Assembly (NCBI RefSeq): GCF_001676055.1
Contig: NZ_LZEX01000006.1
Span: 64,001-108,739, forward strand
Reading direction: 5' to 3'
Length of the DNA: 44,739 bases
From: Morganella psychrotolerans
GTDB lineage: Bacteria > Pseudomonadota > Gammaproteobacteria > Enterobacterales > Enterobacteriaceae
The notes under the pieces are model-generated. The model was not told the DNA's origin, ran no database searches, and was given only the letters and a program-made list of their open reading frames with translations. Position 1 is the stretch's first letter. Every line of letters starts with the position of its first letter. Of the stretch, positions 42,541 through 44,694 are shown piece by piece. Position numbers and translations under genes: made by a program.

Positions 42541-42736
42541 GTTCTTCTTCGTCACAGGTTATTTTTATTGAAATAATTGAGCGTGTTTCGTAATAAACAT
42601 ACCACATTACGGCATTATACCTGCATAGCCGTGTGCGATAAAACGACAATAATGTACGGTTTTTGTACCCGGTAGTCTGTGATAAACTCCGTCCCATTCC
42701 CGGTAGCCCTCTGTATAGTCAGCAAGTACTCACATC

Positions 42737-43894
42737 ATGAGCAATAGCCCCGATTTACACGCCCTCGCCGCACAGATAAAACTGTGGGGAAATGAACTTG
42801 GTTTTCAGCAGGTGGGTATCTGCGATACCGACCTGAGTGCCGAAGAGCCGAAATTGCAGGCGTGGCTGGATGCAGGGTATCAGGGAGAGATGGACTGGAT
42901 GGCGCGTCACGGCATGATGCGCGCGCGCCCGCATGAATTACTGCCCGGCACACTGCGTGTCATCAGTGTGCGGATGAACTATCTGCCTGCCAAAGCGGCA
43001 TTTGCCGCCACACTGCAAAATCCTGCACTGGGTTACATCAGCCGCTATGCGCTGGGGCGGGACTATCACAAGCTCCTGCGCCAGAGACTGAAACAGCTTG
43101 GTGAGCGAATTCAGGCGCATTGTGATGCGCTGGCACTCAATCATTCCCTGAGTTACCGCCCGTTTGTTGATTCCGCGCCGGTACTCGAACGACCGCTGGC
43201 AGCGAAGGCTGGTCTCGGTTGGGTTGGTAAGCACTCACTTGTTTTAAATCGTGATGCCGGCTCCTGGTTTTTTCTCGGAGAGCTTCTGATTAACCTGCCT
43301 CTGCCTGTTGAGAGGCCGGTTGAAGAGCAGTGCGGGCGCTGCGTGGCCTGTATGACCACCTGCCCGACACAGGCAATTGTGGCGCCTTATACTATTGATG
43401 CCCGCCGCTGTATCTCCTATCTGACTATCGAGTTGGAAGGCGCGATCCCTGAGGAGTTCCGCCCGCTGATGGGTAACCGGATCTACGGCTGCGACGACTG
43501 TCAGCTTATCTGCCCGTGGAACCGTTTCTCACAACTGACTGATGAAGATGATTTTTCACCGCGCAAACAACTGCATACCCCGGAGTTACTGACACTTTTC
43601 GCATGGGATGAAGCCACCTTTCTGCGTATCACGGAAGGCTCTGCGATACGGCGTATCGGGTATCTGCGCTGGCTGAGAAATATCAGTGTTGCACTCGGCA
43701 ATGCGTCTTATGAAGATAATATAGTGATCGCCCTGACCGCGAAAAAAGGGCTGACAGACTGGCTGGATGAGCACATTGACTGGGCAATTGCCTGCCAGTA
43801 TGTGAAAAGAGAGGAATCCGGTATTGAAATACAGACTTCACAGCAAAAACGACTTATCCGCGCCATTTCCAAAGGTTTACCCCGCGACGCCTGA
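42737..43894 (+). CDS. queG: Epoxyqueuosine reductase QueG
   Basis: Cobalamin- and iron-sulfur-dependent enzyme that makes queuosine at the wobble position of four tRNAs. It has 385 residues (E. coli about 379). The N-terminal cobalamin-binding domain contains PFVDSAPVLERPLAAKAGLG. The ferredoxin-like Fe-S domain contains CGRCVACMTTCPTQAI and CDDCQLICPWN, eight cysteines for two [4Fe-4S] clusters. It is divergent from tsaE across 196 bp. The 3' end faces the DnaA-box region and tRNA-Gly genes. Confidence 0.97.
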   Translation: MSNSPDLHALAAQIKLWGNELGFQQVGICDTDLSAEEPKLQAWLDAGYQGEMDWMARHGMMRARPHELLPGTLRVISVRMNYLPAKAAFAATLQNPALGYISRYALGRDYHKLLRQRLKQLGERIQAHCDALALNHSLSYRPFVDSAPVLERPLAAKAGLGWVGKHSLVLNRDAGSWFFLGELLINLPLPVERPVEEQCGRCVACMTTCPTQAIVAPYTIDARRCISYLTIELEGAIPEEFRPLMGNRIYGCDDCQLICPWNRFSQLTDEDDFSPRKQLHTPELLTLFAWDEATFLRITEGSAIRRIGYLRWLRNISVALGNASYEDNIVIALTAKKGLTDWLDEHIDWAIACQYVKREESGIEIQTSQQKRLIRAISKGLPRDA

Positions 43895-43918: not shown

Positions 43919-43927
43919 TTATCCACA
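43919..43927 (+). promoter_or_regulatory. DnaA box TTATCCACA
   Basis: Exact match to the high-affinity DnaA box, 24 bp after the queG stop codon. Confidence 0.75.
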
Positions 43928-43938
43928 ATACTATGAGT

Positions 43939-43947
43939 TGTGAATAA
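43939..43947 (-). promoter_or_regulatory. DnaA box TTATTCACA
   Basis: Exact match to TTATNCACA on the minus strand, facing the box at 43919 with an 11-bp gap. Confidence 0.65.
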
Positions 43948-44033
43948 TATAAAAAAAACCTTGTCTATCAACGTGAAGAAAAAAATGCAAGAGAGCTGTC
44001 ACGCAAATAGTATAAATTAAATTAATATATAAA

Positions 44034-44046
44034 TATCAATGAATTA
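44034..44046 (+). promoter_or_regulatory. IHF binding site consensus
   Basis: TATCAATGAATTA fits WATCAANNNNTTR at every position and lies in an AT-rich stretch between DnaA boxes. Confidence 0.6.
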
Positions 44047-44103
44047 AATAAGTAGCATGCGGAGTTTTACCACATTAAGGAGAATAGCCGTCAAAATCCG
44101 ATC

Positions 44104-44112
44104 TGTGGATAA
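44104..44112 (-). promoter_or_regulatory. DnaA box TTATCCACA
   Basis: Exact high-affinity DnaA box on the minus strand (TGTGGATAA on the plus strand), 58 bp beyond the IHF site. Confidence 0.75.
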
Positions 44113-44618
44113 CTCTGTGCAGGAAAGTGTGACTGAGCGCGCAGGGTGTTAATAACGTGGCGCATCTGATTATGGATAAAAAATAACAGGCGGACAAAAA
44201 TAATCTGTCAGTTTACCTTAATTATCCCCTGAAAGAGGGTATAAACCGGAAACTAACCTGAAAACCGGTCAGAAAGTCCTGTTGGCTATCTGTTTGCGTT
44301 CAAACAATCACCACTGCTGATCACCGGCCTGACCTTCATCAGAGAGGGCGCACATTCTATTTCGCCAGCCGTGGATTAGCAAGCATTTTACCTGATTTTT
44401 CCAAAAAAACCGGTTTAACCGGTTAAATAATCAGCATTATTCCGCTACGGATCATTAACGGTGATTATTCTGTGCAAACGGCGGGCACAGATGCTTATTT
44501 ATACCGGCAACAATTTAACTGAAAGCAGCAGGTATAAGAAATACGAATAAAAGCGACAATGGTATTTTTACAAAAGAAAACGAGCAGAAGAGAAAAACGA
44601 TATAAGAAGAAAAGAGAT

Positions 44619-44694
<76 letters not shown>

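Follow-up and report, generated by a model that had tools for sequence, protein, structure and literature searches.

The intergenic region between queG and a tandem array of tRNA-Gly genes in Morganella psychrotolerans is, judging from its sequence, very probably the orthologue of the E. coli replication control site datA. Position, parts, order, orientation and spacing match those of the E. coli site, and the proposal of an earlier note on this DNA that the region is a functional datA homologue was therefore supported; DnaA and IHF binding, hydrolysis of DnaA-ATP and restraint of initiation would follow in this organism by analogy with the E. coli work. The window, i.e., the whole stretch of 44,739 nucleotides that was analyzed, belongs to contig C6 (108,739 bases) of the draft genome G000 and ends with this contig inside the second tRNA-Gly copy, which starts at about 44725. 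Three tandem tRNA-Gly genes were present in the stretch read of four genomes of the same genus with longer contigs. The features of the locus in window coordinates are the following:

42737..43894, plus strand: queG (epoxyqueuosine reductase), an ORF convergent with tRNA-Gly as in E. coli; stop at 43894
43919..43927, plus strand: inverted box 4 equivalent, TTATCCACA, at a distance of 20 bp from box 3
43939..43947, minus strand: box 3 equivalent, DnaA box TTATTCACA
43948..44008, minus strand: conserved block between box 3 and the IHF site, containing no GATC in the window genome
43961..43971, minus strand: TTG-N5-YAA motif TTGATAGACAA, 24 bp before box 3
44034..44046, plus strand: IHF site TATCAATGAATTA, facing box 2 in the E. 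coli orientation
44104..44112, minus strand: box 2 equivalent, TTATCCACA, in the context CAGAGTTATCCACAG identical to E. coli
44116..44124, minus strand: box 7 equivalent, TCCTGCACA, with two mismatches and a GAG spacer to box 2
44171..44179, minus strand: degenerate box 1 equivalent, TTATCCATA, at the E. coli distance of 67 bp before box 2
44354..44382, minus strand: promoter-like TTGCTA-17-TAGAAT followed by GTGCGCCC, 270 bp upstream of box 2 and directed at datA
44619..44694, minus strand: tRNA-Gly(GCC), the last complete copy of the tandem array cut by the contig end

The individual observations of the earlier note also held. It had listed three exact DnaA boxes, and TTATNCACA was found at 43919-43927 (+), 43939-43947 (-) and 44104-44112 (-); the perfect IHF consensus placed between the second and third box was recovered as an exact WATCAANNNNTTR at 44034-44046 (+). 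The interval described as gene-free contains no ORF of at least 80 aa lying wholly between the queG stop and tRNA-Gly, and its position between convergent queG and tRNA-Gly(GCC) is that of E. coli datA. Box 7, the degenerate box 1, the match in orientation to E. coli, the block at 43948-44008 and the distance of 506 bp to tRNA-Gly were absent from that note. At the spacing of box 1, G001 of the same genus carries an exact TTATCCACA. Among the best 80 of 595 named loci, the window queG was 76-81% identical to queG of Xenorhabdus, Proteus and Photorhabdus. On the other side of queG, nnr, its neighbor in E. coli, was absent from 42556-42736, the interval up to an upstream ORF that we take, from our reading of it, to be tsaE-like.

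In E. coli MG1655 (NC_000913.3), glyVXY is separated from the convergent queG by a gap of 269 bp. Read from the tRNA toward queG, this gap holds TTATCCACA(+) as box 2, the IHF site TATCAATAGGTTA(-) at +65, TTATTCACA(+) as box 3 at +162 and TCATCCACA(-) as box 4 at +174, while the same reading of the window gives TTATCCACA(+), TATCAATGAATTA(-) at +66, TTATTCACA(+) at +165 and TTATCCACA(-) at +185. The 9-mer TTGTAAACA of E. coli ends 3 bp before box 2, and the DNA from the start of this 9-mer through box 3 measures 183 bp. For E. coli datA, a low-affinity box 7 adjoining box 2 in the same direction is described (PMC5835720), and the length is given as 183 bp for minimal datA (PMC5742627) or as 187 bp (PMC10380432). 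The 9-mer fits the published box 7 by this description and the 183-bp minimal length, and not by a published sequence. The window locus shares with datA the convergent tRNA-Gly/queG site, equivalents of the high-affinity boxes 2 and 3 that point the same way and enclose a single IHF site at fixed spacing, box 7 adjoining box 2 in the same direction, and an inverted equivalent of the stimulatory box 4 just past box 3.

The survey of the family was anchored on queG, which matched in 187 of the 295 family genomes. Counting queG-placed loci only, 128 were read of 189 genomes with a queG match, representing 90 of 95 genera; L120 was put back by hand in this count, and some second members of genera were picked knowing that they matched. 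A pair was scored when TTATCCACA was followed on the same strand, 157-165 bp later, by TTATNCACA with at most one mismatch. The earlier note had named missing conservation of the boxes in close relatives as the result that would speak against it. The pair was present in 126/128 genomes and 88/90 genera of the GTDB family, including all six genomes of the genus (opposite strand, 0/128), and in 38/38 named Enterobacterales loci among the best 80 of 595. In G074 and G037, queG was present, and no exact pair at 155-167 bp was found at this locus or elsewhere in the genome; the queG of G037 carries an in-frame TAG. After de-duplication of 168 oriented loci, including loci fetched by the datA pattern, 132 unique loci remained; L069, L070, and L120 were left out, having no queG match in the stretch. 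An exact pair in the same (++) orientation at 155-167 bp was found in 124/132 of them, and in 0/132 for each of the orientations +-, -+, and -- and for each of four permuted boxes.

Of the 132 loci, 127 had the composite arrangement and form the base of the counts for the motif, box 7, the IHF position and the promoter. The spacer between boxes 7 and 2 was GAG or GAC in 120/126, and box 7 ended in AACA in 104 and in CACA in 22, the window genus being among the latter (n = 126). An inverted box 4 within two mismatches was recognized in 76/127 loci and is not universal. The best IHF-type match (at most two mismatches) lay 65-66 bp from box 2 in 99/127 loci and outside 60-70 bp in 19/127; the IHF site is less rigid as a consensus and is not recognizable by it in every locus. 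We also considered whether box 7 is held at low affinity, with two to three mismatches even where the CACA core is back, and judged this weak: 3/39 distinct 9-mers had at most one mismatch against 6.3 expected (P = 0.02, kinship uncorrected).

These counts bear on the alternative that the boxes titrate DnaA only, with no catalyzed hydrolysis and an incidental IHF site. DnaA binding is to be expected at boxes 2, 3, and 4, which are perfect, and datA was originally described as a titration site (PMC5835720). Titration, however, needs no fixed orientation or spacing, yet the spacing was exactly 161 bp in 81 of the 126 genomes and within 157-165 bp in the other 45 (163 bp in 16, 162 bp in 12, other values in 17), the 165 bp of the window lying at the long end of this range; moreover, the best IHF-type match fell 63-67 bp from box 2 in 106/127 loci. 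We therefore regard pure titration as improbable and retain the reading as datA.

Chance is a poor account of the boxes in the window. Five exact boxes were counted in the 44.7 kb against 1.76 expected, a number reached in 4/100 shuffles, and three of the five lie within 194 bp, for which that density predicts about 0.02 by simple arithmetic. The inverted pair 43919/43947 has no second occurrence in the 4.37-Mb genome, and its reversed pattern has none at all. The composite pattern box2-N48..70-IHF-N70..100-box3, allowing spans of 149-201 bp, occurred once in the window genome and in 41/295 family genomes, once each (reversed control, 0/295), and the matches spanned 168-174 bp only, though 149-201 bp were allowed. 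As an exact IHF match was demanded, the composite count is limited, and queG anchoring was used instead. Three composite matches outside the family (G398, G479, G485) were not accepted as datA; in G398 and G479 there was no queG within the fetched stretch, and in G398 transporter-like ORFs lay alongside. G398 (L069) and G479 (L070) are two species of a single genus that does not belong to the family, and their composite matches, away from queG, span 180 bp. The short signature MACAGASTTATCCACA, a box doublet with a 3-bp spacer, was rejected as diagnostic by itself, since it was found in 200/295 order genomes, in several more than once, and the context of R4 in E. coli oriC is similar. Its reversed pattern gave no match in the 295 order genomes, and the doublet may be a widely used DnaA docking site beyond datA.

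The pair also persisted where queG did not. It was kept exactly in G102, G212, G285, and G036, which had no queG match, and in G295, which retains a queG trace, and was not found in G013 and G044 (2.0-2.4 Mb, no queG). With the pair retained in 5 of the 7 genomes asked, it is unlikely that the boxes are conserved on account of queG, and selection on the site itself is favored. The loci fetched from G212, G285, and G036 contained boxes 7, 2, and 3, with spacings of 165, 165, and 161 bp, and no queG within about 1.2 kb. G212 and G285 had an IHF-type match and G036 had none, and among these three loci an exact TTG-N5-YAA occurred in G036 only. Three tRNA-Gly genes lie on one side of the G036 locus and an nnr-like ORF on the other; an nnr-like ORF also follows the locus in G212. 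The nnr-like labels are our own reading of the ORFs.

When the 81 loci in which the pair is spaced by 161 bp were aligned on box 2, their conservation profile revealed a second conserved element. Mean pairwise identity was 0.29 in the spacer between box 2 and the IHF site, 0.64 in the IHF core and 0.61 in the 61 bp before box 3; because the columns share one tree, the contrast between block and spacer is not due to relatedness. The 0.33 measured near the 3' end of queG is an unfair control, as the distance from box 3 to the stop varies. The consensus of the block is roughly aAAatGTTA....gATC.CTTG....tTTT.T.....TTGAat..CAA.G..TTTTTAtTT, followed by box 3. TTG-N5-YAA was found within 62 bp before box 3 in 117/127 loci and within 62 bp after box 2 in 5/127. 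It started at -24 from box 3 in 95/127; a further 21 loci had it at -23 to -27, and a single one had it at -19. Its position depends little on the total spacing, so that length changes fall mostly between the IHF site and the motif. GATC was present in the block of 81/127 loci (control, 21) and missing in the window. A hairpin of TTG-N5-CAA with pairing flanks looked plausible by eye and was rejected, as pairing was not above that of shuffles.

Convergent transcription units flank the site on both sides, and in E. coli the end of the block is overlapped by yjeV, so that the conservation could in principle belong to the queG 3' UTR, to a queG/tRNA terminator or to the small gene yjeV, and not to a DnaA site. 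Against this stands, besides the persistence of the pair after loss of queG, the character of the block: no RNA structure or covariation was detected (alifold 0.0; flank pairing in 29/81 loci versus a shuffle mean of 29.1), the yjeV start codon was present in 23/125 genomes and is not conserved, and Rfam found only tRNA at the locus and no family for the block. We consider such an origin of the conservation highly improbable. A recurrent Fis consensus was not found in the block either (best position, 5/81 loci). As part of a datA site, the block may, from its sequence, be a surface for DnaA spreading, a region of intrinsic curvature or a site for another protein. It is unnamed in the literature searched, as far as the texts seen go and with "datA" inseparable from "data" as a search word. 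In two papers, "another regulatory factor" is proposed (PMC10950094) and "unidentified factor(s)" are invoked (PMC5742627); a block locked to box 3 offers a concrete target for such a factor.

DnaA of the same-genus G004 is intact, and its segments around R281, R285, L290, and R334 are identical to E. coli; the window genome's own DnaA reading has the same identical segments. In the window genome dnaA (G000:C5:48366-49747, L285) lies in two frames, split after the sensor-2 region. The gene is one open frame in G001, G003, G004, and G005 of the same genus, and the split in the draft is probably an assembly error. IhfA was present over the curated family cut-off.

DARS2 and oriC likewise pair DnaA boxes with IHF sites, and E. 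coli oriC contains the CAGAGTTATCCACAG context too, so that the locus might be a DnaA/IHF element of a different kind, either an origin or a site that reactivates DnaA in the manner of DARS. The synteny, however, is that of datA, and the origin lies elsewhere: the blastn match to E. coli oriC was at about 16.6 kb of contig C5 in the window genome and at about 33 kb in G001 and G005. We give this alternative very little credence. G001 and G005 are the two complete genomes of the genus; the distance between oriC and datA is about 200 kb in G001, or 5% of its chromosome, and about 274 kb in G005, or 7%, compared with about 467 kb (10%) in E. coli; in the draft G000 they are on different contigs.

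A further feature of this datA locus is the long segment toward the tRNA. Box 2 is 477-506 bp from tRNA-Gly in six genomes of the genus, three of g91 and one of g83; the distance is 501 bp in Proteus columbae, and Xenorhabdus beddingii has 493 bp. Over the 96 loci with the tRNA in range the median was 89 bp, and there was one other long case (L115, 429 bp). Morganella- and Proteus-type genomes have about 400 bp extra between tRNA and datA. The segment of the window contains a terminator-like hairpin at 44408-44424. The pattern TTGC[A/T][A/T]-17-TA[G/A]AAT was found 270-314 bp before box 2 in 11/127 loci (six of the genus, three of g91, one of g83, and one of g128) and also in P. columbae; it was missing in the five named Xenorhabdus/Photorhabdus loci tested. 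Outside the genus its first hexamer is TTGCAT, 3/6 to consensus, and six loci of other genera carry other promoter-like sites upstream of box 2. In the window segment, 3 promoter-like sites were found versus 2.4 expected by shuffling, and the promoter argument rests on conservation among relatives. In E. coli, read-through transcription from the tRNA genes moves IHF at datA; in this lineage we infer that regulation by tRNA read-through may have been replaced by the promoter-like site. In the window, the interval 44113-44618, which carries this stable-RNA-like promoter pattern (TTGCTA, or TTGCAT in the relatives, 17, TAGAAT), matched no RNA family and is possibly an undescribed RNA gene.

A related cluster was observed at the tRNA/queG site of Vibrionaceae. 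The best 80 of 595 named loci included 22 from this family (within L212-L250, with further loci at L299-L317) and 20 from other families. Among these, [A/C]ACAGA[G/C]TTATCCACA was present 303-402 bp from the queG stop in 22/22 Vibrionaceae and 0/20 other-family loci; the latter had no exact box within 600 bp, L245 having one farther out. All 22 also carried an inverted TGTGG[A/G]TAA 18-19 bp on and a last box, TTTTCCACA or TTGTCCACA, at 262-281 bp. In 15/22 an IHF-type match, by a pattern looser than the consensus, was found at 120-125, and in 20/22 TGTGNTTAA (inverted TTAANCACA) lay 48 bp before the last box. In 18/22 named loci the stretch read contained tRNA genes, for the most part tRNA-Gly and tRNA-Met on the far side. 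Genome-wide, the first two parts of the pattern matched in 18/295 order genomes (reversed control, 0), all of one family, the family name being deduced from the named loci; these were 18 of 22 sampled genomes of the family, the pattern lacking in four, and queG was in the fetched locus for 18/18. The cluster resembles datA in the tRNA/queG site, in the box 7/box 2 doublet and, in most loci, in an IHF-like site followed by a box; it differs by the extra inverted box and in placing the IHF-like site at 120-125 and the last box at 262-281, compared with about 65 and 161 in datA. Position and shared doublet suggest common ancestry or a like way of working. A Vibrionaceae counterpart would place a datA-type brake in two-chromosome bacteria. 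The literature mentions datA-like RctB sites in V. cholerae and, for B. subtilis and S. coelicolor, clusters of DnaA boxes that are analogous.

Taken with the E. coli biochemistry, the geometry suggests how the site would work. Boxes 7 and 2 stand head to tail with a 3-bp spacer, and box 3 follows 165 bp on in the same orientation, with the IHF site between them, 66 bp from box 2. After initiation, IHF would bend the spacer and thereby bring the ATP-DnaA bound at boxes 7/2 into contact with that bound at box 3; the DnaA oligomer would then hydrolyze ATP via the sensor-2 Arg334, and ADP-DnaA would leave, restraining re-initiation. The block locked to box 3 probably provides a further contact in the same complex, conceivably through DnaA spreading or another protein. 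More tentatively, and with somewhat less than even confidence, we propose that datA predates the split of Enterobacteriaceae and Vibrionaceae; that the block of about 60 bp, with TTG-N5-YAA about 24 bp before box 3, is a dock for the regulator postulated in the E. coli literature for timely datA-IHF binding or DnaA assembly, or else a further DnaA contact surface; and that in Morganellaceae a dedicated stable-RNA-type promoter transcribing datA replaces the distant tRNA.

In the searched literature, seen in part and with "datA" inseparable from "data", datA is described from E. coli only, and we met no description of the locus in other enterobacteria or Vibrio; an alignment may exist in Kasho and Katayama (2013) or Kasho (2017). 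Deletions of datA cost little in E. coli, which one study calls poorly related to its high conservation (PMC4585315). A rigid geometry in 88/90 genera, together with the queG-less genomes, shows steady selection and puts many natural variants at hand. Three elements go beyond the earlier note: the block, the cluster in Vibrionaceae and the promoter-like site of Morganellaceae.

Compared with E. coli datA, the locus agrees in the order and orientation of box 7, box 2, the IHF site, box 3, and box 4, in the distances from box 2 to IHF (65 bp in E. coli, 66 bp in the window) and from IHF to box 3 (97 and 99 bp), in the CAGAGTTATCCACAG around box 2 and in the position of box 1 at -67. There are several differences, most of which count against the reading as datA. 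Box 7 is TTGTAAACA in E. coli and TCCTGCACA in the window; box 4 is TCATCCACA at 12 bp from box 3 in E. coli, whereas it is perfect and at 20 bp in the window; box 1 is degenerate in a different base; the block has no GATC, unlike that of E. coli; and the tRNA is 506 bp away with a promoter-like site within, instead of 85 bp. The 165-bp spacing, the loci without an IHF consensus, and G074 and G037 without a pair weigh in the same direction. DARS1, DARS2, and oriC share with the locus the DnaA boxes, partly with IHF sites, and R4 of E. coli oriC stands in the same context as datA box 2. All three differ in locus and box orientation, and also in role: DARS1 and DARS2 have the opposite effect on the nucleotide state of DnaA, while oriC serves unwinding.
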